Source: a virus. From it: DNA of 25,379 nucleotides. The stretch lies in the IMG/VR virus record IMGVR_UViG_3300047560_000794, positions 1-25,379 of that record; one strand, given 5' to 3'. The notes below the pieces were generated by a model that made no database searches, was not told the origin of the DNA, and worked only from the letters and a program-made list of their open reading frames with translations. Position numbers and translations under genes: made by a program. Shown piece after piece: positions 7,136-17,444 of the stretch (its first letter is position 1; each line of letters starts with the position of its first letter).

Positions 7136-7987
7136 TCACTTACGCTTTTTAATTGCATCTGGATCTGCTGTAGCAGAAGCACCGATTGCGGCCAAGTCTG
7201 ACAGAGATCCACCGAAGATATAGCTGCCGACATGTTGCAACTTCATCCATGGGCAGAACCATGTCTTGATTCCTGCCTCTTGTGCTTTTTGGCAGAACCA
7301 ATAGTCTTCAGACAGATAACGCTCGGACTTCGGATCGATCTCAGCCTGGAAAAACTGCATGATCTTACGTGAGCCGTCGAAGTGTTCTGTACGAACGTGA
7401 TCTGGCTTGTACATGTATTGATCTTTATAAGTGTCGAAGAACTTCTGCATGGCTTGCTTAGTCACCATCATGAAGCCCGTGCCGATCTCAAGAACTTCAC
7501 AGGGTTCACCGATCGGGATAGAAGTAGTGCCGTTCTTTGGGTTGAAGACGAAATCACCAACGAACTTTTCAAGGACGTTAGGATCTTTATCAGCAAAACC
7601 CTTGTCGACTGCGGTCTTGATCTTTTCCCATGAGATACACTTCTTAGGATAAGGGCCACCGATGATCTCGTACTTCTCAGCGTCTTGAATCTGCAGAGCC
7701 ATCATAGCGATGACGTCTTGTGGATTGAAGCCGATGTCAGAGTCGATGAACATCATGTGATGTGCTTCAGAGCGCATGAACTCGTCGCAGCAATAGTTAC
7801 GTGCACGAGTGATCAGAGACTCATTGAAGAGATAGTAGAATTGGAGAGCGATGCCATACTGAGTACAGATGGCAGACAAGTCTGCACAAGACTTAGCAAA
7901 CATACCAGCACACTGACCACCATACATCGGTGTAGCTACGAAGAGCTTGTGCTGTCTTAACTTTTCAACGTCAATCTTAATTTCCAT
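7136..7987 (-). CDS. GT-A type glycosyltransferase-like protein
   Basis: A 283-residue protein of a family common in cyanophage-type T4-like phages. Features in order: LFVATPMYGGQCAGMFAKSC (11-34 region), NESLITRARNYCCDEFMRS, the nucleotide-sugar binding DxD motif in MFIDSDIGF (D82, D84), GGPYPKK, VGDFVFN, EVLEIGTGFMM, then LSEDYWFCQ and WMKLQHVGSY. The ED and H residues near the end are typical acceptor-side and metal residues of GT-A enzymes. The sugar donor and acceptor are unknown. Modified DNA is one candidate acceptor given the dCMP hydroxymethylase in this window; a cell-surface or virion acceptor is another. AAGGATG precedes the ATG. Confidence 0.85.
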   Translation of the reverse strand: MEIKIDVEKLRQHKLFVATPMYGGQCAGMFAKSCADLSAICTQYGIALQFYYLFNESLITRARNYCCDEFMRSEAHHMMFIDSDIGFNPQDVIAMMALQIQDAEKYEIIGGPYPKKCISWEKIKTAVDKGFADKDPNVLEKFVGDFVFNPKNGTTSIPIGEPCEVLEIGTGFMMVTKQAMQKFFDTYKDQYMYKPDHVRTEHFDGSRKIMQFFQAEIDPKSERYLSEDYWFCQKAQEAGIKTWFCPWMKLQHVGSYIFGGSLSDLAAIGASATADPDAIKKRK

Positions 7988-7993
7988 GAAATA

Positions 7994-8290
7994 TCATCCT
8001 TTATCGTTATTGTACTGGGTGTCATGAACGTGTAGTTGAATGATAGCGTAATGAATGACTTTCATCAAGTCCTTACGCCAATCCTCGGGCGTTCCTTTTT
8101 TACCATAGCGTTGAGAGTACTTCATCACGTTACCAATACAGAAACCTGTACCATGACCGGAATCGATGATGAACTCTGTAGCTTGAAACTTATTACGCGA
8201 ATAATGCTCGCCATAAGTTGCCGCTATGTATGCGAAGATCTCGTTGATATATTCGTCTTCTTTATACTTATACGAACTTTCGTCCTGCAT
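7994..8290 (-). CDS. DUF3310-type phage protein
   Basis: A 98-residue protein matching the DUF3310 pattern: an N-terminal YKYKEDEYINEIFAYI helix, GEHYS, then GTGFCIGNVMKYSQRYGKKG (about residues 47-66), and the helix DLMKVIHYAIIQLH. DUF3310 proteins are frequent in phages and often labelled nucleotide kinase, but I see no P-loop here, so I do not accept that label. A link to nucleotide metabolism is plausible from its location after the modification genes. The ATG has GGAG five bases upstream and it lies between the methyltransferase and glycosyltransferase genes. Confidence 0.82.
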   Translation of the reverse strand: MQDESSYKYKEDEYINEIFAYIAATYGEHYSRNKFQATEFIIDSGHGTGFCIGNVMKYSQRYGKKGTPEDWRKDLMKVIHYAIIQLHVHDTQYNNDKG

Positions 8291-8306: not shown

Positions 8307-9506
8307 TTATGCAAAAAATTCTTCCAAGTTTGCGGACTCATTAGCATACTCAACGCTCTGAGTATGATTGTACTGATAAACAAGATCTTTACCGATCCAG
8401 TCTCTCTTGCCTTCCAAGACTGCTTTAACTTCTGAAGCCATGTCCATAGCAGTCTGAACTGGAACGTTCTGACAAATATGATTGACGCTCTTTCTAGGAT
8501 TCAACAAGATATAGTCTTCTGGCATACCCATGATTGTCAGAGCTTCACGATAAGTGATGTATCTATCTTCATGAGGATGAGTAGTCATCATAGGATAGTG
8601 GCCTACGAATGCGCCGATATAGTCTTTCGGCACGATCGTTCCGCGCCTCATTATATTACCACCACTTTCGAGCTTTGTAAACATCCTATCGCACTTTTCT
8701 ACTTCTTTTTCGAAGCCTTCTTTCTTCATCCACTCACCTACCTGTTTGTAAGTATGGCCGTGGAACTCGATCAGGCTCTTGGCATCTAAGTATCGAACTG
8801 CAATGTCAGAAGTATCCAGTTTGTCAAAGTGTTCACGATGAGTGATTCCACCGTGTACGACTTCGAGCAAATAACGATAGTACGGATCGTCTGTTGGCTT
8901 CTTCTTGTTGATGGGTTCCATCATGGTATTGGACTTAGAAGCACCAAAGATCACGTCTTCGATCTTTGTGTAGTCTCGATTGAAGTACTTGAGAAGAGGA
9001 ACTCTGTCACCCTTCCAGAAGAAGTAGAACGTACGCTCTCTTACTTGTGGAACGCCGTGCAGCAAACTCTTGGTACGATACAGTGTCATCGTGTATCCGT
9101 TCTCTTTGCCGATGGCAATCAGTTGTTCTCTGATCGGCTTACCGACTTTGCCTGCCAATGCTGGCGCGTTCTCACCCCAGAATACTTCTGGTCGCATCTC
9201 ACCGAGAACGTACTTGGCTGTCTCGATCATCCAACGATTGTTTTGATTGTGCTCACCGTACTCCATAGAGAACATAGACAAACCAGCACACGGACAGACC
9301 GAAGATACGACGTCTACATGATGCGGGTGTTTCTGATCTTTATCTAGGAGATAGTACGGGACTTCGTTGTCCCAATAGTTGAGAAGGTGTGATTCGTTAG
9401 CAGAGAAGGGTGAATAAGAGACGATGTATTCTGGTCTTGTACCGAATACTTTAGTCGAAGCGATGGCTTCGCCGCCGATCAGCGGAATGATAGTCGCGTG
9501 TTTCAT
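8307..9506 (-). CDS. C5-cytosine DNA methyltransferase
   Basis: Transfers methyl groups from AdoMet to C5 of cytosine, unless repurposed. Motifs in the 399 residues: a variant motif I region PLIGGEAIASTKVFG (8-22); motif IV with catalytic Cys in SVCPCAGLSMFS (P72-C73); motif VI WGENAP (110-115); motif VIII GVPQVRERTFYFFW (151-164); motif IX region RYITYREALTIMGMPEDYIL; motif X-like NHICQNVPVQTA. Motif II lacks the usual acidic residue (IVSYSPFSANESHL). Its ATGA overlaps the SGNH gene stop, and a TATAAATA late box lies at 9541-9548. Methylation and the phage's own 5-hydroxymethylcytosine compete for the same carbon, so its real substrate is an open question. Confidence 0.87.
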   Translation of the reverse strand: MKHATIIPLIGGEAIASTKVFGTRPEYIVSYSPFSANESHLLNYWDNEVPYYLLDKDQKHPHHVDVVSSVCPCAGLSMFSMEYGEHNQNNRWMIETAKYVLGEMRPEVFWGENAPALAGKVGKPIREQLIAIGKENGYTMTLYRTKSLLHGVPQVRERTFYFFWKGDRVPLLKYFNRDYTKIEDVIFGASKSNTMMEPINKKKPTDDPYYRYLLEVVHGGITHREHFDKLDTSDIAVRYLDAKSLIEFHGHTYKQVGEWMKKEGFEKEVEKCDRMFTKLESGGNIMRRGTIVPKDYIGAFVGHYPMMTTHPHEDRYITYREALTIMGMPEDYILLNPRKSVNHICQNVPVQTAMDMASEVKAVLEGKRDWIGKDLVYQYNHTQSVEYANESANLEEFFA

Positions 9507-10594
9507 AAAAAAGCCTCAAGAGTAGCATGTTGTACTCCTTTATTTATAGGAGCAGTCAGGCCATTCCATTCCCATCCTTGCCAATGTGGATAGAACTCAC
9601 GAGAAAGATGTACAGACTGCGGCTTCTCCATGTATTTGAAGTCAAGCTCGCCGATAGCGTTAGTCAATTCATCCACCCACTCGAACACGTGCACATTATC
9701 GTGTTCAGCAGTCTGAGCCAGTAGTTCTTGTTTGAAGAAGCGACGGATCTTATCTCTCTCGATACGAGTACCAAAGAACGGCGTCTTTTCATACCAGCCG
9801 GTCTTAGGAATATGTCGCTTCTCGTTCTCAATTGGAAGAAGTTCATATAGAGTTACTTGTGCACCATAATGATCTGCAACTTCTTTGGCTTGTTTGACAT
9901 ACTCTGTCACGATGTCGATCACTGCTTGTTGAGGATCTGACTGTCGAAGTAGATGATGACGTACGTCGATGTTACCAAAGTAGAACTCAATGTTATTGAA
10001 CTTAGCATCAGTTGGTTTGATGAACGACATAAGTCCCATCTTAAGAGCACCATGAAGTGTCTTAAACGGTACAGAGTAGTTGACCCATCCTGGACGATAC
10101 ATGCAAATTGCATGAGAGTCACCGATGGCTATGTTAGGATACAATCTAATGAGATTAGGATCGACCACTTCTGCAGTCTGTTCCATTCTCTTGATGTTGT
10201 CCCAATCTACCTGATTCCAGCGTGGATCGATTTCTTTATTCTTAGAAGAAGCTAGATCTGCTTTATGCTTCAGTTGATCGTAGTAGTCTGGAAACGGAAT
10301 AACCAACGAGTAAACTTTACCTTTGAACTTAGAGAAGTTCAGAAAATTGTCAACATGTGGAAACTCTTTGAGACCACCAAAGAGATTAAGATGTCCTGAC
10401 CAATCATTACCATGATATACGTACATCTCATCAAAAGTATTATGATCTTCCACATAACGCTCCAACGACATGTTGATGTAGATGTCTTTGCCTGCTTGCT
10501 TTAGCTGATCGGCATAGATCACGCCCTGAGCAGCGCGATGACTACTCAGGTTCTTAGCAATGGGAATGAAAGGTGCTGTAAGTACTGCTGTCAT
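9503..10594 (-). CDS. SGNH/GDSL-hydrolase-like protein
   Basis: A 363-residue protein. Residues about 150-360 show the SGNH pattern: block I NIAIGDSHAICMY with the nucleophile Ser160, a block III-like FYFGNIDVRHHLL with Asn, and a block V-like SVHLSREFY supplying His. SGNH enzymes hydrolyse or transfer acyl groups. The N-terminal 150 residues (with DEMYVYHGNDWSGHLNLFGG) have no family I know. It lies between the PLP-enzyme and methyltransferase genes with ATGA overlaps at both ends, so it is probably part of the same pathway; acylating or deacylating a modified base or a cell-wall or capsule role are options. Fold call moderate, function unknown. Confidence 0.62.
   Translation of the reverse strand: MTAVLTAPFIPIAKNLSSHRAAQGVIYADQLKQAGKDIYINMSLERYVEDHNTFDEMYVYHGNDWSGHLNLFGGLKEFPHVDNFLNFSKFKGKVYSLVIPFPDYYDQLKHKADLASSKNKEIDPRWNQVDWDNIKRMEQTAEVVDPNLIRLYPNIAIGDSHAICMYRPGWVNYSVPFKTLHGALKMGLMSFIKPTDAKFNNIEFYFGNIDVRHHLLRQSDPQQAVIDIVTEYVKQAKEVADHYGAQVTLYELLPIENEKRHIPKTGWYEKTPFFGTRIERDKIRRFFKQELLAQTAEHDNVHVFEWVDELTNAIGELDFKYMEKPQSVHLSREFYPHWQGWEWNGLTAPINKGVQHATLEAFL
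9541..9548 (-). promoter_or_regulatory. Late promoter box upstream of the methyltransferase gene
   Basis: An exact TATAAATA on the minus strand, within the last codons of the SGNH gene and 35 bases before the methyltransferase ATG. It would let the methyltransferase be made late and independently of the rest of the operon. Confidence 0.5.
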
Positions 10595-11466
10595 AGAAAC
10601 TTGTCCCAGTCTCGATAAGAGTCTATTCTATCATAAATCGTTTCATCTTGTAACTGCGGTTCTGTACCAACGTTCCACATCAAGATGTTCTTGCCTGTAT
10701 TCTTGGGGATATACTTCCATACTTTCCCATCATAAGTTGGAACAGACGGGAACGGAGGTAAGTTCTCTGGCTTTTCTGGAGTAGTGAACGGCAACGGTTC
10801 TGAGATAACATTACCTCTACCGAGTTCACCCTCTTTGAGATTGCGTGCTACAGCTATACAGTGAAACTTAGCCTTTGGCCATGCGATCTGAAGTGCGCGA
10901 GATAGTACACCAGTTGAGATAGCCACATACACTTCATCTGGTGGATCGATCTTAGATGCTGCATGTACGATGCCTGCGGTGGCGAGTTCATGTTTAAGAC
11001 CAAGTGGAACAAAGAAGGCGTCGTTCTTCTCTGCCCATGCCATAGCTTTCATGTTCAAGATGGGCATAGCTGCAATGCGCTCGAAGATCACTTCTGCGCC
11101 GCGCTCGATGCAACATGCTTGATGAAGAGACACACGCTTCGAAGAAGGCATGAACAGAGTGACCTTTTTATTATGTCGCTTAGCTACATCGAGGATCGAA
11201 ACACCTGCCAGACCGGTGCGAGGTTGTGAATACACGATCCGATCGTAGTTGGTCTTGGATGCAAGAAGATCGCCAGCACGTGTCTTCGTACCTACGATCA
11301 AGTCGTCACGTACTACTCTGACTCCCTCGTGCTCGATAACCACAGGATCTGGATTGTATGGAGTCCAACCCTCTGTCATAGCGAGATAGTACTCGCGTGC
11401 GGCTTCGTATCCGTATACACCAACGTCTTTGTTGATGCCGTCTATTACATGATTATTGTGCGCCAT
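10591..11466 (-). CDS. Fold-type-II PLP-dependent enzyme
   Basis: A 291-residue protein resembling ACC deaminase, D-cysteine desulfhydrase and related beta-family PLP enzymes. VVRDDLIVGTKTRAGDLLAS (51-70) corresponds to the family pattern K-x-D-x...G-N-K-x-R-K, making K61 the probable Schiff-base lysine. DRIVYSQPRTGLAGVSILDV and KVTLFMPSS follow like the substrate-loop and Rossmann-like strand. VAISTGVLSRAL could hold the cofactor phosphate. PLP enzymes of phages have been tied to processing of amino-acid-derived adducts on modified thymines, so a role in tailoring a modified cytosine is a reasonable but untested idea. It overlaps its upstream gene by 14 bases and the SGNH gene by ATGA. Confidence 0.68.
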   Translation of the reverse strand: MAHNNHVIDGINKDVGVYGYEAAREYYLAMTEGWTPYNPDPVVIEHEGVRVVRDDLIVGTKTRAGDLLASKTNYDRIVYSQPRTGLAGVSILDVAKRHNKKVTLFMPSSKRVSLHQACCIERGAEVIFERIAAMPILNMKAMAWAEKNDAFFVPLGLKHELATAGIVHAASKIDPPDEVYVAISTGVLSRALQIAWPKAKFHCIAVARNLKEGELGRGNVISEPLPFTTPEKPENLPPFPSVPTYDGKVWKYIPKNTGKNILMWNVGTEPQLQDETIYDRIDSYRDWDKFL

Positions 11467-12445
11467 ATTGATTCGTCTTCAGTGACCAATTACGAGGATA
11501 GACCCAATCATACGGGATCTGTTTGGTAGTCTGCTTAACACCGTTTCTGATAGCAGTATGCTTATAGAAGAAACAAAGCTTATCTTCGATGTTTAAGAAC
11601 TTATGAGTATGAATTGGATTGCTAGGATGTTCTTTCAAATAGATCATCTTATCAAGAAAAGAATGACAAGCTGCATTCATAGCGATGTAGTTACCACGAT
11701 CGTCGATCTCATACTTAGCTTTTGACATGTAGTGCGGACAGTCGAACACCTGAACGATGCCATCAAAGAAGCCAGTACCACCATGCAGGAACGATTCAGG
11801 ATCGACCCATTCAGGATGAGTCATAGCAATATGACGAGCTGCGTTCTTGCATGGATACATCGCGTTACGAAAGCCGTGCACTCTGACGAAATATTCGTTC
11901 AACTTCTTGGCATACTCCATCATAGCATACGGTCTGTTCTTTTCAGTCAGAGTATGATGCATGTCTTCCGCAGCCTGCATAGGTACACGAGTCAACCACT
12001 CTTTGACGTCAGTATCTTTTGGATAGTAGATCTGAAACAAGTCAGAACGAGCATGTCGCTCTTTCTCGAATCGTCTTTTCATGGCATCTACGCCACCGTT
12101 CTTCCATGCCAAGTAAGTAAGCCAGTGTTCATTGGTGAACGAGAACAGAAGACATGCCTCTAGGACAGTCTTCGGATCAGTTACTTTCTTGACTTCATCT
12201 ACGAACGGACACTCATGCCAGTGCAAGCGATGAGAGAACTGTTGATAGTTCTCAGCCAACAGAGAATCTTCTCTCTTGTCATAAGCTCTACAGAACTCAA
12301 AAAACTTCTCAGTTCGTTCTTCTTGTGACCACTTCCACATCCAGCTTCGAGTAGGTTTGCCCTTCTCATCAAGCTCGACCTCACTGAGATTATCATACAC
12401 TATATCGTTGGAAGTGTCAACTAATTGTTCAGCTAACCAGTTCAT
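11453..12445 (-). CDS. Unknown protein, possible DNA-base-modifying transferase (330 aa)
   Basis: No certain family. It is rich in aromatic residues and histidine and mostly helical. A striking block at 197-230 reads YPCKNAARHIAMTHPEWVDP, then E-S-F-L-H-G-G-T-G-F-F-D-G-I, followed by QVFDCPHYMSKAKYE. The neighbouring 384-residue protein has a similar block, so the two may be paralogues. The helix plus P-x-(W/Y)-V-(D/N) plus S-(F/L) pattern reminds me of the alpha-helical amino acid:DNA transferases (formerly aGPT-PPlases) of phages that hypermodify thymine; this is recollection, not a search result. GAGGAGAG precedes the ATG, and it overlaps both neighbours. Probably part of the modification pathway. 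Confidence 0.5.
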   Translation of the reverse strand: MNWLAEQLVDTSNDIVYDNLSEVELDEKGKPTRSWMWKWSQEERTEKFFEFCRAYDKREDSLLAENYQQFSHRLHWHECPFVDEVKKVTDPKTVLEACLLFSFTNEHWLTYLAWKNGGVDAMKRRFEKERHARSDLFQIYYPKDTDVKEWLTRVPMQAAEDMHHTLTEKNRPYAMMEYAKKLNEYFVRVHGFRNAMYPCKNAARHIAMTHPEWVDPESFLHGGTGFFDGIVQVFDCPHYMSKAKYEIDDRGNYIAMNAACHSFLDKMIYLKEHPSNPIHTHKFLNIEDKLCFFYKHTAIRNGVKQTTKQIPYDWVYPRNWSLKTNQYGAQ

Positions 12446-13583
12446 TGACTCTCCTCTTGTATTCTTCGACAGTCATATCGTTCATCTTCAAGACATAGTC
12501 GTCTGATGGATGAACGTTGAGAGAGTTGAACGAGTGAATAAGACCGAGATCCAACATAGCTTTTTGTCTGCCAAACGGATGATCCTTGATCTTACAAGAA
12601 GACCAGATCTGATCTCTGTCCAAATGATCGTAGTCTGCACCAGGACGAACGTAGTTCTCTACCCAACGAATAAAGTCACAACAAACGTCTTCTGCGTTAT
12701 ACGGATACGCGCCGGTGTCTTCGTAGATCTTAACCATGACTGCATCTAGGAACTTCTCCTTATTCATACGAGTTGTATTGACTGCTAGGTAAGAGATACA
12801 CTCGACTGCATTGCTGCCATAATAGAACAAGCTATCTTTGTTGACATACTGCGGATACCAATCTGCGATGTCTGCAATGAACGCAGCATATTGAAACTTG
12901 TACAGCTTCAGATCGTGCTTTTTATTGAACTCAAACAGCCACTCGCCCATCTCACGAAAGTCTCGCTTCTGGCCAGATTCAAGCCATTCAGCCATCTCAC
13001 GGCATAACTTAGGTGCAAACACGCTAAGGTAGTAGTCGCCTGCACGACGATAGTGAGTGTTCTGTGGGATCTTAGGGAAACTGGGGAACTGATAACCGAT
13101 AGAAGTATAGAACGGCTTCATCATAGTATTGACGAGCTGCACCATCTCTTCGATGTCTTTACAAGTATACAGATCAAATAGAAGAGTGTTGTAGTAACCA
13201 GATGGCTTAGTAGAATAGTTGATGCCAGAACCGGTGATTCGATGCAGAAGAAATACGTACAACCACTCTGGAAGTTTGAAGTCTGAATGCTTACCTGTCC
13301 AGTCCGTGGCTACACGCTTACGCTGAACGGTATGATTCCCCTGTACCATCTTAGGCCAATAGGGGTGTTCTTTAGTCCAACCATAGAAAGCGTCATTGAC
13401 GATCTGTGAGAAACCAGCATACTTGCGTTCGACGACGTCATATAGTTCTACATGTTCCAGTAGATCGTCGTTCATCTGGCTCTCAGTGTACTTAATAGTT
13501 CCTAAGTTACATTTGGCCTGCTGGTCTTTTGCTAGTTCAAAATAGCGTAGATATTCATCATAGTATTGTGTAGTCTCAAGCAT
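12429..13583 (-). CDS. Unknown protein, possible paralogue of the 330-aa protein (384 aa)
   Basis: No certain family. It is helical, with an N-terminal part YYDEYLRYFELAKDQQAKC, a middle LPEWLYVFLLHRITGSGINY (105-124), and the block LYKFQYAAFIADIADWYPQY (227-246) continuing V-N-K-D-S-L-F-Y-Y-G-S-N. That block parallels residues 197-226 of the next protein. The GSGINY region and conserved aromatic residues suggest a ligand pocket. I place the start at ATG 13581-13583, which sits just before the stop of the SMUG1-like gene; a TTG one codon earlier is possible. Tight overlap on both sides puts it in the dCMP hydroxymethylase operon. A role as DNA-modification enzyme is inferred from context. Confidence 0.5.
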   Translation of the reverse strand: MLETTQYYDEYLRYFELAKDQQAKCNLGTIKYTESQMNDDLLEHVELYDVVERKYAGFSQIVNDAFYGWTKEHPYWPKMVQGNHTVQRKRVATDWTGKHSDFKLPEWLYVFLLHRITGSGINYSTKPSGYYNTLLFDLYTCKDIEEMVQLVNTMMKPFYTSIGYQFPSFPKIPQNTHYRRAGDYYLSVFAPKLCREMAEWLESGQKRDFREMGEWLFEFNKKHDLKLYKFQYAAFIADIADWYPQYVNKDSLFYYGSNAVECISYLAVNTTRMNKEKFLDAVMVKIYEDTGAYPYNAEDVCCDFIRWVENYVRPGADYDHLDRDQIWSSCKIKDHPFGRQKAMLDLGLIHSFNSLNVHPSDDYVLKMNDMTVEEYKRRVNELVS

Positions 13584-13980
13584 CAAGATAGTCTTTCAAA
13601 CTTTCAAGCATCTTCGCTTCGTATTCTTTGTTATTAAGGTTACGATTACGCGGCGATGGATGATCAATCTTATAATGTGGGATGTTGTATTTATCCAAGA
13701 CTTTTGATACCACGCCACCGAGAGCTATGATCTTCTTTCGATTCTCGCACTTCTTCTTTAGCTCTTCAACATTGACTAGTTTAGTGTCGACTGAGTTAAC
13801 TTCATTGATGATGTTACAGAAGTCCCACTGTTTTAGACCAACATGCGTGGTCCAAGTAAGCAGACGTGCGAAAGTACCGTTCTTGAACGGCTTAGTGTTC
13901 GAAGACGGTGATAGACCAATGATCAAAAAGTCTGGATGACCGATGTGCCCGGGAATGAAGTCTGGTACAGTTTTAATCAT
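13576..13980 (-). CDS. SMUG1/UDG-superfamily DNA glycosylase-like protein
   Basis: A 134-residue protein with the two hallmark motifs of the uracil-DNA glycosylase superfamily. Motif 1 is LIIGLSPSS (20-27), at the place of GMNPG in SMUG1. Motif 2 is HPSPRNRNLN (107-116), almost the SMUG1 HPSPRNPQAN loop. KIIALGGVVSKVL (about 83-95) is the intervening strand and helix. SMUG1 enzymes excise uracil and 5-hydroxymethyluracil. At 134 aa it is about half the usual length, so it is a minimal version. The start ATG 13978-13980 overlaps the deaminase stop (TAATG). Next to a dCMP hydroxymethylase, removal of 5-hydroxymethyluracil from deaminated 5-hydroxymethylcytosine is an attractive role. Confidence 0.75.
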   Translation of the reverse strand: MIKTVPDFIPGHIGHPDFLIIGLSPSSNTKPFKNGTFARLLTWTTHVGLKQWDFCNIINEVNSVDTKLVNVEELKKKCENRKKIIALGGVVSKVLDKYNIPHYKIDHPSPRNRNLNNKEYEAKMLESLKDYLDA

Positions 13981-14459
13981 TATTTCAACAATCTTGAGAA
14001 TTCGATGCCCGCTTCGAAGAACATTTCTTGCGTAGTCGCAAATGAATCTCTCCACTTATCATCGATCTCTACAGGATAACACATGAACACACGCTTCACT
14101 CCTACTTGAATAACTCCCTTGGCACATTCAGAACAAACTGGAAGACCGTGCACAAATAGGTTTGAATCCTTAAGAGACATACCACTCAAAGAAGCGTTGT
14201 AGATACAGTTCATCTCTGCATGTACTACGTACTTAAGTTTAGTCTCTCTATCTTCAAGTCTGGAACTATTATCTTCTATACCACGAGGAAAACCGTTGTA
14301 ACCTTGAGAAAGGATCTGACCCTCTTTGCCGACTACTACAGCACCGACTTTAGTACGTGGATCTTTAGACCAAGTAGCGATCTCTTTTGCAAGATTTATA
14401 TAACGTCTTGTCCACAGTCCTTCACGACTGTATAAGGTCGAAGTGTCGTTCATAGACAT
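13980..14459 (-). CDS. Deoxycytidylate (dCMP) deaminase
   Basis: Converts dCMP to dUMP for dTMP synthesis. A 159-residue protein of the ComEB/dCMP deaminase family: the zinc and catalytic motif HAEMN (H80, E82), the PCxxC-like motif GLPVCSECAKG (C109, C112), and the substrate region GYNGFPRGIED (53-63). The same arrangement is seen in T4 gene cd product. The ATG at 14457-14459 has AGGAAG upstream and lies within the 3' end of gene 42 in another frame. With the adjacent hydroxymethylase it controls the split of dCMP between dUMP and hydroxymethyl-dCMP. Confidence 0.94.
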   Translation of the reverse strand: MSMNDTSTLYSREGLWTRRYINLAKEIATWSKDPRTKVGAVVVGKEGQILSQGYNGFPRGIEDNSSRLEDRETKLKYVVHAEMNCIYNASLSGMSLKDSNLFVHGLPVCSECAKGVIQVGVKRVFMCYPVEIDDKWRDSFATTQEMFFEAGIEFSRLLK

Positions 14460-15081
14460 GTAAGCTTCCTACGTTCCAATGAATATCACCAGATAAAATA
14501 CCAAGATCGACAGATAGCTTTTCAAGTACATATCTTTGCCAAGCGTAGTCGTTCTTGTAGCCGAAAACTACGTCGTTACTACGCATCTGAACTACGCAAT
14601 CGAGTTGATCCTTACGAATCAAGTACTGAACTGCGTTTGTACACATAAAGTCACTGCGGCCATTGTGATTATAATCCAACCACATATTAGGACGAGTGTA
14701 GATCATAGTAGCACGGCGCGAGTAAGGATGAGCCATGAGTTCATGCCTAACTCGTTCATATTGAAAATAGTTATCTTCAGACCAGATACACCAACCATAG
14801 TTAGAGTTAATGTAACCAGCGTTATCGCATACTTGTTTCCATATAGCAGGTGGACCGCCAGGAATGTCGTTGACACTGAGAGACATCGACTTATACCAAT
14901 CAAGCTCACGCTTGACATAGTCTTCGTTGACTTTGCCAAAGATAGAGGGTTCGTCAGCTATAAAGCTAGCACCAACGATCTCAAGCATCTTGACACCAGT
15001 CTTATCGACTACAAAGTCTTCTACTTCTAGAAGATCTAGAAACTCACGACGAATGTCATCTACATAATTACGAACGTGCAT
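14422..15081 (-). CDS. 42: dCMP hydroxymethylase (gp42)
   Basis: Adds a hydroxymethyl group from methylene-tetrahydrofolate to C5 of dCMP, the first step to hydroxymethylcytosine DNA. The match to T4 gp42 is close: DFVVDKTGVKMLEIVGASF, INSNYGWCIWSEDNYFQYER, DFMCTNAVQYLIR with the catalytic C147, and MRSNDVVFGYKNDYAWQRYV. D178 stands where thymidylate synthases have Asn; this Asp selects cytosine over uracil (T4 D179). At 219 aa it lacks about 25 C-terminal residues of the T4 enzyme (246). Start at ATG 15079-15081 (MHVRNYVDDIRREF) with AGGAAG upstream, although the frame is open further. It overlaps both neighbours. Confidence 0.96.
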   Translation of the reverse strand: MHVRNYVDDIRREFLDLLEVEDFVVDKTGVKMLEIVGASFIADEPSIFGKVNEDYVKRELDWYKSMSLSVNDIPGGPPAIWKQVCDNAGYINSNYGWCIWSEDNYFQYERVRHELMAHPYSRRATMIYTRPNMWLDYNHNGRSDFMCTNAVQYLIRKDQLDCVVQMRSNDVVFGYKNDYAWQRYVLEKLSVDLGILSGDIHWNVGSLHVYERHFDLIQS

Positions 15082-15418
15082 CGGTAATCTTCCTGTTGAA
15101 GATGTCATGATCTGGAAGCTGACCGTCGACTTTGCCACGAACATAAGAGACAAAGAAAGAAGAATAGTTGATCAAATCCATAGCAGAGTCTTCGAGAGAC
15201 TCGAAGTTAGGTGTGTAGTTAGGATCATTCATCATAGCTTCCATGACCGACTGCATACGAAGCATCTTTGCATGCATGATGTCATGAATAGTGAGACAAC
15301 CATTAGGATAGTAGTCAGCTTGACGAATACGAGAAGTAGAATTCTGGTAGTCGTTAGACTTCTTATTCTGCAGGTCGATACACTGTTGTAGCACAGATAC
15401 TGAGTAGCGGTCGGTCAT
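15068..15418 (-). CDS. Nmad1 (DUF1599)-like nucleotide-modification-associated protein
   Basis: A 116-residue helical protein with the pattern of DUF1599, also called nucleotide modification associated domain 1: LQNKKSNDYQNS (K20, D23, Y24), LTIHDIMHAKMLRMQSVMEA (42-61), and LEDSAMDLINYSSFFVSYVR (75-94) with paired acidic residues. Families of this type are linked by genomic context to modified nucleotides in phages and may act as NTP/NMP pyrophosphatase-like or sensor proteins. GGAG lies five bases before the ATG. It is the first gene after the promoter 15446-15475 and overlaps gene 42 by 14 bases, so it leads the modification operon. Confidence 0.72.
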   Translation of the reverse strand: MTDRYSVSVLQQCIDLQNKKSNDYQNSTSRIRQADYYPNGCLTIHDIMHAKMLRMQSVMEAMMNDPNYTPNFESLEDSAMDLINYSSFFVSYVRGKVDGQLPDHDIFNRKITDARS

Positions 15419-15445
15419 GGTATCTCCGATTTAAATTAGATAGCT

Positions 15446-15475
15446 ATTATACCATTATTGTTTGTAAGATGAAAC
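15446..15475 (-). promoter_or_regulatory. Promoter of the modification operon
   Basis: GTTTCA (15470-15475), 18-nt spacer, TATAAT (15446-15451) on the minus strand. It overlaps the 3' end of the PD-(D/E)XK-like gene and precedes the Nmad1-like gene. The -35 box is close to the GTTTAC/GTGTAC early-type boxes elsewhere in the window. Confidence 0.58.
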
Positions 15476-15925
15476 AGAAAGATCGTAGAGTCGACCGATA
15501 ATTTCTGGATCTTCAATGGTCTTGACTACGTTCATCTTACCAAGATCATACATCCTAGTATCGATCTTACGAGGCCCAAACCCAGTAACTACCGAGTAAC
15601 AATCTTTGGTAGCTTCATAGATACGAACTGTCTCGTCCGGTGACGTAGGATTGGAAATGAAATAAAGCTTATCTGCATTATCAGCTTTATACCACTGACT
15701 CTTCTCGAGAGGCATAGCAAAGTACTTGCGAATAACGGTACGAGTCTTAACTTCTACTTTTAGAGGTCGAGATGCACCAGTCATAGAAGCAGAGATGTCT
15801 TTGTGCATGTCATAGACGTTCTCCGACAGGGAGACACGACTATATTCTCCAGTCTCTTGAAGATACTGAAGGACGATCTTTTCGCCAATAGAGCCAGTTT
15901 CGAGGATTTTAGATTGTTGATTCAT
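15455..15925 (-). CDS. PD-(D/E)XK nuclease-like protein
   Basis: A 156-residue protein with a plausible restriction-endonuclease-like core: helix with GSIGEKIVLQYLQE (E15), acidic D43 in YDMHKDISAS, then the strand LKVEVKTRTV with E58-V-K60, the (D/E)xK dyad. The rest (YFAMPLEKSQWYKADNADKL) fits a following helix and strand. No closer family is recognised. Possible roles are a nuclease acting on host or unmodified DNA, or an inactive relative. AGGAG lies before the ATG. Confidence 0.6.
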   Translation of the reverse strand: MNQQSKILETGSIGEKIVLQYLQETGEYSRVSLSENVYDMHKDISASMTGASRPLKVEVKTRTVIRKYFAMPLEKSQWYKADNADKLYFISNPTSPDETVRIYEATKDCYSVVTGFGPRKIDTRMYDLGKMNVVKTIEDPEIIGRLYDLSVSSYKQ

Positions 15926-15953: not shown

Positions 15954-16367
15954 TTATGGATTTTCACGGAACTTTACGTCCACTAAGTCTCCGTGATTAT
16001 TCCAGTGGGAGGGTGCAACCCAACCAGCTGGTTTAATTAGATCTGGTAGTCCGAGAGGATTAGGACGACCCTCTTTCACTCCAACTTCTTTCTTCATGTT
16101 AGCTTCAAGAACTTCGTTCCAAGCCTTATAAGCATCCACGTTATAAGCGTCAAGAGTACCAATAGCAACGACGCATAGATCGATTAGTGCATCGACAACG
16201 TCTTCTGGTCCCTGAGCATTCTTCAATTCGTCGAGTTCTTCCTGAAGAAAGTTAATTCGAAACTCAAGAAACTTAGTAAGCTTCTCGGAATCCATCTTCT
16301 CCATAGCTTCATGAGCTTTATAGTGAAGATGCATAGTATAGATGTCACGTACCCAATCTTTAGACAT
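15954..16367 (-). CDS. MazG-like nucleotide pyrophosphohydrolase
   Basis: A 137-residue protein with the all-alpha NTP pyrophosphatase signature: FLQEELDELKNA (E43, E44, E47) and EDVVDALIDLCVVAIGTL (D56, D59, D63), the two helices that bind magnesium and the triphosphate. The C-terminal tail GVKEGRPNPLGLPDLIKPAG is common in phage phosphoribosyl-ATP pyrophosphohydrolase-like proteins. It may hydrolyse unwanted dNTPs (T4 uses gp56 to remove dCTP when making hmC DNA; no gp56 is seen here) or adjust ppGpp-related pools. The ATG has GGAG upstream and overlaps the upstream gene by eight bases. Confidence 0.85.
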   Translation of the reverse strand: MSKDWVRDIYTMHLHYKAHEAMEKMDSEKLTKFLEFRINFLQEELDELKNAQGPEDVVDALIDLCVVAIGTLDAYNVDAYKAWNEVLEANMKKEVGVKEGRPNPLGLPDLIKPAGWVAPSHWNNHGDLVDVKFRENP

Positions 16368-16920
16368 TAATCCACTCCGGAGGTTGTCGGTTAGTCCATT
16401 TATGCATAGAAGATTTACCGATCTTATAGTAGTTGCGATAATTTGTCAACGGATCATCGCTGATCTTGTATTCGTCAGCCATAGCACTGGGCATAGGAGT
16501 CATGTCATAGTCACGAAGATTGTGAGGTGGAGACTGAAGCATGTATGCCAATTGACCGTTACAAGCATGTACTTTCTTGTAGCGATGCATGTACTCGTTC
16601 ATCAGAGCATAGAAGTGCTCGACAAGCCAGAGATAGTTCTCTACAGAAGCGCGAGTCCAGACTGCAGACGGATGATTCATATGAGTAGCTTTATAGATCA
16701 CGTTCTCGCGAGCATCATCCAAGATCCAACGCTTGATCTTACGATAACGAGGAGGAATAGATCCGGGAACATAGCGTTCTTCGACAGTCTGTCTGCCGTC
16801 TAGGAGGCGATGAGCTGTAGACAGAAGCTGAGCAGACTCCAAGATCATCTTGACTACGTGCTTGTCAACCATCATTTCGGCAGCTTTAGCCGGATCATGA
16901 TCTAAGTAGAAGATATTCAA
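16360..16920 (-). CDS. Conserved T4-like phage protein (DKHVVKM family), TTG start
   Basis: A 186-residue protein widespread in T4-like phages and, as far as I recall, without an agreed function. Conserved parts: MNIFYLDHDPAKAAEMMVDK then HVVKMILESAQLLSTAHRLL, YKATHMNHPSAVWTRASVEN, NEYMHRYKKVH, and the end MHKWTNRQPPEWINV. Many conserved His, Asp and Trp suggest an enzyme or metal site. The start codon is TTG (16918-16920), inside the TGA stop context of the deformylase gene (TTGA), with CGGAG eight bases upstream. The conserved N-terminus supports this start. Confidence 0.8.
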   Translation of the reverse strand: MNIFYLDHDPAKAAEMMVDKHVVKMILESAQLLSTAHRLLDGRQTVEERYVPGSIPPRYRKIKRWILDDARENVIYKATHMNHPSAVWTRASVENYLWLVEHFYALMNEYMHRYKKVHACNGQLAYMLQSPPHNLRDYDMTPMPSAMADEYKISDDPLTNYRNYYKIGKSSMHKWTNRQPPEWINV

Positions 16921-17444
16921 GCAAAGACTCCGTCTGATGGTTTAATGTAGATACCACTTATATCACCTTTGCGCCATTTTGTCAACGCATTTTCTCTATG
17001 ATACCGGTTTGCTTTATTATAGAACAGCTCACCGTCCATGTGGTCCATCTCATGTTGAAAGACTCGAGCAGCCATACCGCGAAAAGTTTCAGATTTGATG
17101 TCTCCGTTGGGAGTATTAAATCTTACTCGGATCTCTTCAGATCGTTTAATCTTGACTACTAAACCAGGAAATGATAGACAAGATTCTTCCATAACTGTTG
17201 TCTTGTCGTTGTAGTAGACTATACGTGGATTGAAACATACGAAATTCTGTGGATGACCTCGCATAGCAAATACACGATAGGGAATACCTACCTGATTTGC
17301 TGAAAGACCAAGACCATTCTGATCGTACATAAACTTGACAAACTCATATGCAAATTCAGCCGGATCAAACGGAGGATTAGTGAAGTCGAACTCTTCACAC
17401 TTCTTTGTCAGTATCTGGTCGTTCGGTGCTACTAGTTTCATCAT
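16917..17444 (-). CDS. def: Peptide deformylase
   Basis: Removes the formyl group from nascent protein N-termini. All three active-site motifs are present in 175 residues: GLGLSANQVG (44-53), EESCLSFPG (86-94, metal ligand C89), and QHEMDHMDG (130-138, ligands H131 and H135, catalytic E132). Ser replaces the usual Ala in motif 1. Phage deformylases are known in cyanophages, where they may help process host photosystem or phage proteins. The gene starts inside the AbrB-like gene (50-base overlap); AAGGAAAAGAG precedes two tandem ATGs (17444 and 17441), either of which could serve. Confidence 0.96.
   Translation of the reverse strand: MMKLVAPNDQILTKKCEEFDFTNPPFDPAEFAYEFVKFMYDQNGLGLSANQVGIPYRVFAMRGHPQNFVCFNPRIVYYNDKTTVMEESCLSFPGLVVKIKRSEEIRVRFNTPNGDIKSETFRGMAARVFQHEMDHMDGELFYNKANRYHRENALTKWRKGDISGIYIKPSDGVFA

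Follow-up and report, generated by a model that had tools for sequence, protein, structure and literature searches.

A gp42-linked gene cassette of T4-like phages as a predicted new variant of cytosine hypermodification

Introduction

What becomes of 5-hydroxymethylcytosine (hmC) in an uncultured T4-like phage whose gp42 gene, for a dCMP hydroxymethylase, lies within a block of nine overlapping genes? We addressed this question for IMG/VR record IMGVR_UViG_3300047560_000794, a stretch of 25,379 bases that was analysed at its full length (henceforth the window), in which the block runs along the minus strand from position 15418 down to 8307. In phage T4, gp42 makes 5-hydroxymethyl-dCMP, and alpha- and beta-glucosyltransferases (AGT and beta-GT) then decorate hmC. 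Decoration of phage DNA with amino acids is known for thymine. To our knowledge, the decorations of cytosine, whether known before or found in the course of this study, are of the glycosyl, carbamoyl and glycyl-carboxymethyl types.

An initial annotation of the window, made from its letters without database searches, had proposed a hypermodification operon acting on gp42-made hmC. This proposal is supported by the identity of gp42, by the site at which the block is exchanged for other tailoring genes, and by a beta-GT-type N-terminal domain in the SGNH protein of the block. We estimate at about 0.85 the probability that the cassette tailors hmC in phage DNA with a further group, and we see in it a new form of cytosine hypermodification in phages; searches of the open-access literature found no account of this cassette. 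It offers a short gene set relevant to new DNA chemistry, to the ways in which phages escape restriction and CRISPR, and to DNA-labelling tools.

A conserved cassette of overlapping genes

The nine genes are given below in their order along the minus strand. Counts refer to a conservation set of 42 distinct IMG/VR contigs that span the whole interval. Start codons of gp42, the UDG/SMUG-like gene and the 385-amino-acid (385-aa) protein gene were picked by reading, and those of the other genes are the starts of the open reading frames (ORFs).

15068..15418, minus: Nmad1-like small helical protein; phrog_18404 (hydrolase) 2e-12, DUF1599 weak, Nmad1 E 0.06 (under the Pfam cut-off); 42/42 contigs
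14422..15081, minus: gp42, dCMP hydroxymethylase; TS E 3e-13 (passes the Pfam cut-off), 61% identity to T4 gp42; 42/42 contigs
13980..14459, minus: dCMP deaminase (optional); PF00383 3e-18 (passes the cut-off), phrog_174 1e-42; 23/42 contigs
13576..13980, minus: UDG/SMUG-superfamily-like protein (optional); PF03167 E 0.0025 (under the cut-off), motifs GLSPSSNT and HPSPRN in the sequence; 25/42 contigs
12429..13583, minus: 385-aa protein with a putative amino acid:DNA transferase (AADT) fold (core); model and fold matches; PLP-enzyme gene as neighbour in 191/191 loci
11453..12445, minus: 330-aa protein (optional), possibly sharing the fold of the 385-aa protein; 29/42 contigs
10591..11466, minus: fold-type-II pyridoxal phosphate (PLP) enzyme (core); phrog_7093 'threonine dehydratase' 1e-35, PALP E 0.12 (under the Pfam cut-off); 42/42 contigs
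9503..10594, minus: SGNH protein (core), with a T4 beta-GT-like N domain (residues 1-115) and an SGNH domain (residues 145-338), from hhalign and VIA
8307..9506, minus: C5-cytosine-methyltransferase (C5-MTase)-like protein with an altered S-adenosylmethionine-binding region (optional); PF00145 2e-17 (passes the cut-off); 14/42 contigs

All nine closely packed genes named in the initial annotation were found on the minus strand, and every one of the eight junctions is an overlap (14, 38, 1, 8, 17, 14, 4 and 4 nucleotides, 5' to 3' along the block). The single promoter that had been assigned to them did not hold up: 32 sigma-70-like sites were counted against 30.9 expected in shuffled sequence, and same-strand genes continue past both ends of the block.

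Five genes, encoding the Nmad1-like protein, gp42, the 385-aa protein, the PLP enzyme and the SGNH protein, were present in all 42 contigs in unchanged order, far above chance; as the contigs had been retrieved with the 330-aa, PLP and 385-aa proteins as queries, the constancy of the query genes is partly one of choice, which does not apply to gp42, Nmad1 and SGNH. Other genes varied, namely those for the DUF3310 protein (38 contigs), the 330-aa protein (29), the UDG-like protein (25), the dCMP deaminase (23) and the C5-MTase (14), so that the last of these, initially counted as an essential part, is optional. In an independent set seeded with gp42, 28 of the 48 contigs with enough flanking sequence carried the cassette. 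The gene next to that of the 385-aa protein, in loci with enough room, encoded the PLP enzyme in 191/191 cases, and an SGNH neighbour was found in 189/191, contigs retrieved by several queries being counted more than once. Since the module is also found in different genomic surroundings and with different gene orders (contigs L394-L401, e.g., L396 and L400, and L420-L425, e.g., L423), it moves as a unit. Among uncultured T4-like phages the cassette is common.

Several contigs binned as bacterial genomes also carry the cassette, whole or in part: L420, L421, L423 (Rhodobacteraceae bin), L418, L419 and L424. Phage replication genes are carried by L418 and L419, and the binned contigs look like misplaced phage contigs.

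A swappable tailoring site between gp42 and gp45

The 61% identity between the gp42 of the window and that of T4 extends across 218 amino acids and includes the conserved active-site stretch RSNDVVFGxxNDYAWQ. From this close similarity, taken with background knowledge of T4 gp42, it follows that the enzyme is predicted to act on dCMP rather than dUMP. The Nmad1-like protein is probably of the nucleotide pyrophosphatase type, for which removal of dCTP would be a fitting role.

Most gp42-seeded contigs without the cassette hold other tailoring genes in the same gp42-gp45 interval. The interval of contig L302 encodes a HAD/kinase-like protein, a cytidylyltransferase (PF01467, 2e-16) and a member of the T4 DNA alpha-glucosyltransferase family (PF11440, 7e-15), while in L301, L312 and others it contains a 363-aa protein with weak beta-GT likeness (hhalign 46%). 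A third type, represented mostly by SGNH-seeded contigs (e.g., L387 and L409), has an inositol-1-phosphate synthase (1.5e-23) and a protein with the HMUDK_hel domain (2e-8 and 3e-9, over the curated cut-off), followed by the SGNH gene and a C5-MTase. The unannotated record of Pseudoalteromonas phage XG4 (L003, 100-6580) has, consecutively, gp42, a fusion of a nucleotidyltransferase with a kinase-like part, two glycosyltransferase-like genes and a C5-MTase. In Stenotrophomonas phage DLP_6, neither gp42 nor the cassette was found between the peptide deformylase gene and gp45. The gp42-gp45 slot is a swappable site for hmC-tailoring cassettes, and our strongest argument that the cassette of the window acts on hmC is that it swaps in this slot with other tailoring genes.

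Two of the sister cassettes deserve mention in their own right. The gp42 cassette of L302 (9459-12399), with its AGT-family enzyme, may specify an unusual glycosyl-hmC, and the phage myo-inositol-1-phosphate synthases in the gp42 cassettes of L387 (3241-4377) and L409 (3192-4505) may indicate an inositol-type decoration of cytosine.

An SGNH protein with a beta-glucosyltransferase-type N domain

In the AlphaFold2 model of the SGNH protein (predicted local distance difference test score, pLDDT, 84), residues 145-338 form an SGNH fold (VIA Z 13.8 to 2hsj, with PatB and many PAF acetylhydrolases and esterases also among the matches), and the initial call of an SGNH-like protein is confirmed by this model and the fold search. 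A profile search of the protein against PDB sequences gave nothing useful. Across 161 SGNH sequences S160, G207, N208 and H329 are nearly invariant. The modelled fold and the Ser/Gly/Asn/His blocks indicate membership of the SGNH hydrolase superfamily, with catalysis predicted. The protein shares its fold and its Ser, Asn and His positions with hydrolases of the PAF acetylhydrolase and PatB type, but differs from them in that the Asp usual three residues before the His is not conserved and in that it is fused to a beta-GT-type N domain within a phage DNA-modification cassette.

This N domain (residues 1-115) aligned with that of T4 beta-GT (BGT) at 96.7% hhalign probability (score 70.6, 109 columns, co-linear from residue 1). 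In a control with 60 other phage families the best score was 32.4, and it came from a family that itself resembles BGT; Foldseek, run on the model, independently returned BGT (E 8e-4). The domain provides a direct tie of the SGNH protein to hmC-DNA through predicted DNA binding, and the central protein of the cassette can be described as what appears to be the DNA-reading half of a T4-type beta-GT joined to an esterase-type domain. The earlier statement that the block is without a T4 glucosyltransferase stands for whole enzymes but not for this part of one: no whole beta-GT was found by tblastn in 12 records, in a search to which no positive control responded, and AGT gave no match in Pfam scans of the block proteins.

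Compared with the T4 hmC pathway, the cassette has in common a true gp42, the dCMP deaminase, hmC as the base, the beta-GT-type N domain and, in the same slot of sister phages, an AGT-family enzyme. In contrast to T4, it has no whole glucosyltransferase, the SGNH domain replacing the sugar-donor half of beta-GT; it adds PLP and AADT-like genes; and no gp1-type kinase was found in its relatives.

Aeromonas phage 44RR encodes both gp42 and a fused form of the SGNH protein, the fusion partner being an HMUDK_hel-like domain (Pfam E 0.0036; 4e-4 in a genome search). The C-terminal domain of this protein gave no hhalign signal with the 385-aa protein, the 330-aa protein or PaMx11 gp46. A sodium:solute symporter gene adjoins the fusion (L001, 4408-8388) and may serve to import a donor molecule.

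The PLP enzyme

The match of this protein to phrog_7093 supports its assignment as a PLP enzyme despite the PALP hit below the cut-off. The putative Schiff-base lysine, K61, lies within an invariant GTKxR; it is kept in relatives with 31-33% identity from Erythrobacter and Microcystis phages, and a glycine-rich loop (ISTGVL/GSGTL) is likewise kept across distant relatives. In these phages the relatives are located in, or adjoin, genes with a DNA modification methylase or ParB annotation, which ties the family to DNA modification outside this cassette.

These relatives bear on the possibility that the phage DNA contains plain hmC, with the PLP, SGNH and unknown genes serving host metabolism or defence. 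PLP and SGNH enzymes are indeed common in metabolism, and a DNA-tailoring activity is here a prediction. Against this, the SGNH protein bears the T4 beta-GT-type N domain, the slot elsewhere holds a gene of a DNA glucosyltransferase family, and in other phages PLP relatives are found within or beside genes with a DNA methylase or ParB annotation; we consider plain hmC very unlikely.

A probable amino acid:DNA transferase-like fold

The AlphaFold2 model of the 385-aa protein (pLDDT 75) was nearest in VIA to 8z2n, the 5-PmdU glycinyltransferase of phage PaMx11 (Z 10.3, root-mean-square deviation 3.8, 205 aligned; helix-hairpin-helix DNA glycosylases reached Z <=7.2), a moderate value given that Z under ~13 in helical models may mean merely a common arrangement. 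In BFVD the model matched a 65%-identical protein and a database protein of 330 aa, both of which have the database label amino acid:DNA transferase domain-containing; weaker matches were the 5-hydroxymethyl-deoxyuridine (5-hmdU) DNA kinase of SP10 and an HMUDK_hel protein of PhiW-14. Foldseek of the model against PDB returned no match under 0.001, and tblastn of the 385-aa and 330-aa proteins against cultured phages found none. A Pfam scan of 21 homologues of each protein gave no family and no ADDT match, the relatives likewise being without an ADDT match. On the evidence of the model, the 385-aa protein likely has an AADT-like fold; that the 330-aa protein shares it is a guess. The two had been described as related, which hhalign does not bear out (probability <2% between them), the fold alone suggesting a link. 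Profile and fold searches, proposed along with the initial annotation, revealed the SGNH fold and the beta-GT N domain, and no profile match for these two proteins.

An amino-acid or acyl group on hmC, as originally suggested, is plausible: the former is indicated by the fold match and BFVD label of the 385-aa protein, and the latter by the SGNH domain. For a group derived from an amino acid we see the chances as evenly balanced. Alternatively, hmC may be tailored with a group of another kind (acyl, polyol or sugar-like), in which case the AADT-like fold would serve merely to hold the base or flip it out, with a precursor made by the PLP enzyme. Sister cassettes with the same SGNH gene point in that direction, as they have an inositol-1-phosphate synthase and are without the PLP enzyme, and so do the symporter beside the SGNH fusion of 44RR and the inclusion among SGNH folds of O-acetyltransferases such as PatB. 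The constant pairing of the PLP and 385-aa genes (191/191 loci) argues for the amino-acid option, and so does the structure that the 385-aa model resembles most, an amino acid transferase with DNA as its substrate. We view a non-amino-acid group as unlikely.

The same folds recall the thymidine hypermodification of phages ViI, M6, PaMx11 and SP10, which involves a 5-hmdU DNA kinase and an AADT. Points of likeness are the PLP enzyme, HMUDK_hel in sister cassettes and the AADT-like fold that the 385-aa protein probably has; the cassette of the window differs in starting from hmC and not from 5-hydroxymethyluracil, in the fold type (II) of its PLP enzyme, in its SGNH protein and in that no kinase was found. 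HMUDK_hel, which is of the 5-hmdU-kinase type, was found neither in the window record nor in six long related contigs, records that may be fragments, and this makes an unaltered copy of the thymine pathway unlikely, even though sister cassettes have HMUDK_hel. A thymidine hypermodification of the ViI/M6/SP10 kind via 5-hmdU would account for folds of the AADT and HMUDK type, which are known from that pathway, but with a synthase that is a T4-type gp42 and not a 5-hydroxymethyl-dUMP synthase, and with the kinase not found, we think it extremely improbable.

The C5-methyltransferase homologue and other cytosine pathways

Residues C73, E112-N113 and Q154xR156xR158 of the C5-MTase-like protein are invariant, and N347 is conserved. 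Its motif I reads PLIGG, with S30 where by eye an acidic residue is expected, and HMMER matches to solved methyltransferases begin past the motif I region. Because the gene accompanies three different hmC cassettes and is also found in XG4, a general role in hmC modification is probable. Cyanophage S-TIM61 also has a homologue, which is not tied to hmC because gp42 gave no match in the S-TIM61 record.

A C5-MTase homologue is used in the CmoA-CmoX-CmoY pathway to 5-carboxymethylcytosine, where CmoX has a diagnostic Arg in motif X (PMC12783734). By a route of this type, the C5-MTase of the cassette would add a carboxymethyl handle that is later amidated, and its location beside tailoring genes does resemble that in phage S-B43 (PMC12783734). 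The conserved residue at motif X, though, is Asn (N347) instead of the diagnostic Arg, CmoA was not found in eight relatives (control genomes were positive), 28/42 cassettes are missing the C5-MTase, and gp42, on which the cassette is based, would serve no purpose. We rejected the assignment of the C5-MTase as CmoX and give such a route next to no credence.

A dCMP hydroxymethylase is combined with a carbamoyltransferase acting on hmC in the 5-carbamoyloxymethylcytosine pathway (MetaGPA; PMC8670742). The cassette likewise joins a dCMP hydroxymethylase with tailoring enzymes, and differs in that Pfam scans of the block gave no carbamoyltransferase domain.

A proposed pathway and its difficulties

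As a whole, with its uncertain steps included, we somewhat favour the following explanation. gp42 would produce 5-hydroxymethyl-dCMP, the Nmad1-like protein may help to clear dCTP, and hmC would enter DNA, where a four-gene module (the 385-aa protein, usually the 330-aa protein, the PLP enzyme and the SGNH protein) would decorate it. The SGNH protein may dock on hmC-DNA via its BGT-type domain and perform an acyl or ester step at the Ser-Asn-His site, while the 385-aa and 330-aa proteins may use a glycosylase/AADT-like fold to bind DNA and attach an amino-acid-type group that the PLP enzyme would make, supply or reshape. The order of these steps, the amino-acid nature of the group and the activation of the hydroxyl are our inference, set upon an observed gene set with its conservation, swapping and domain homologies.

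Several observations weigh against this pathway. Profile searches of the 385-aa and 330-aa proteins against PDB sequences returned nothing, hhalign gave no signal between the 385-aa protein and PaMx11 gp46 and no profile link of either protein to known amino acid:DNA transferases, and the VIA Z of 10.3 is moderate for a helical model of pLDDT 75. In the SGNH protein, the residue aligned to D100, the catalytic base of BGT, is D in 109/150 main-set sequences and P in the window. The failure to find HMUDK_hel leaves the activation of hmC unexplained. Likewise, searches of six long related contigs with DNMK and T4 gp1 brought up no dNMP kinase of the T4 gp1 type (44RR and phage 25 were positive; the window is a fragment), which leaves the phosphorylation of 5-hydroxymethyl-dCMP unexplained.

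One conceivable kinase-free route, which we regard as doubtful, would have the beta-GT/SGNH chimera acylate the hydroxyl of hmC and so create a leaving group, for which the AADT-fold proteins would substitute an amino acid supplied or reshaped by the PLP enzyme; the same chimera would then serve different tailoring units in sister phages.

Flanking genes and genomic setting

Two genes follow the block:

7994..8290, minus: DUF3310 protein, adjoining the cassette; PF11753 4e-10; 38/42 contigs
7136..7987, minus: GT-A-like protein (phrog_1574), adjoining gp45; same place in DLP_6 (64% identical) and phiM12

The DUF3310 gene is probably part of the backbone and lies outside the cassette, because a 100-aa ORF sits at the same position in DLP_6, which is without the cassette. 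The GT-A-like gene was considered as a sugar transferase and set aside, as it adjoins gp45 in the cassette-less phages DLP_6 and phiM12; it too is probably backbone and not a cassette member.

A DNA-level search found no close phage record. By major capsid protein, DLP_6 (71%) is the nearest cultured relative, and Methylophilales phage Melnitz (65%) comes next. Along the minus strand the order is gp23, a tail tube gene, uvsY, uvsW, gp55, gp47, gp46, the peptide deformylase and pyrimidine-dimer glycosylase genes, a PRA-PH-type pyrophosphohydrolase gene, the nine-gene block, the DUF3310 and GT-A-like genes, gp45, gp44, gp62 and regA. Directly upstream of the block lies the pyrimidine-dimer DNA glycosylase family gene (16360-16920, minus; PF03013 2e-5), which many relatives keep, and the phage-encoded peptide deformylase is at 16917-17444 (minus; PF01327 4e-38). 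A NO VEIN C-terminal-like (NOV_C) protein, a weak match encoded at 15455-15925 (minus), adjoins the Nmad1-like gene and is optional in relatives. Finally, a cluster of eight tRNAs (Thr, Ala, Val, Asn, two Glu, Lys and Ile; 152-1294, minus) adjoins the replication genes.

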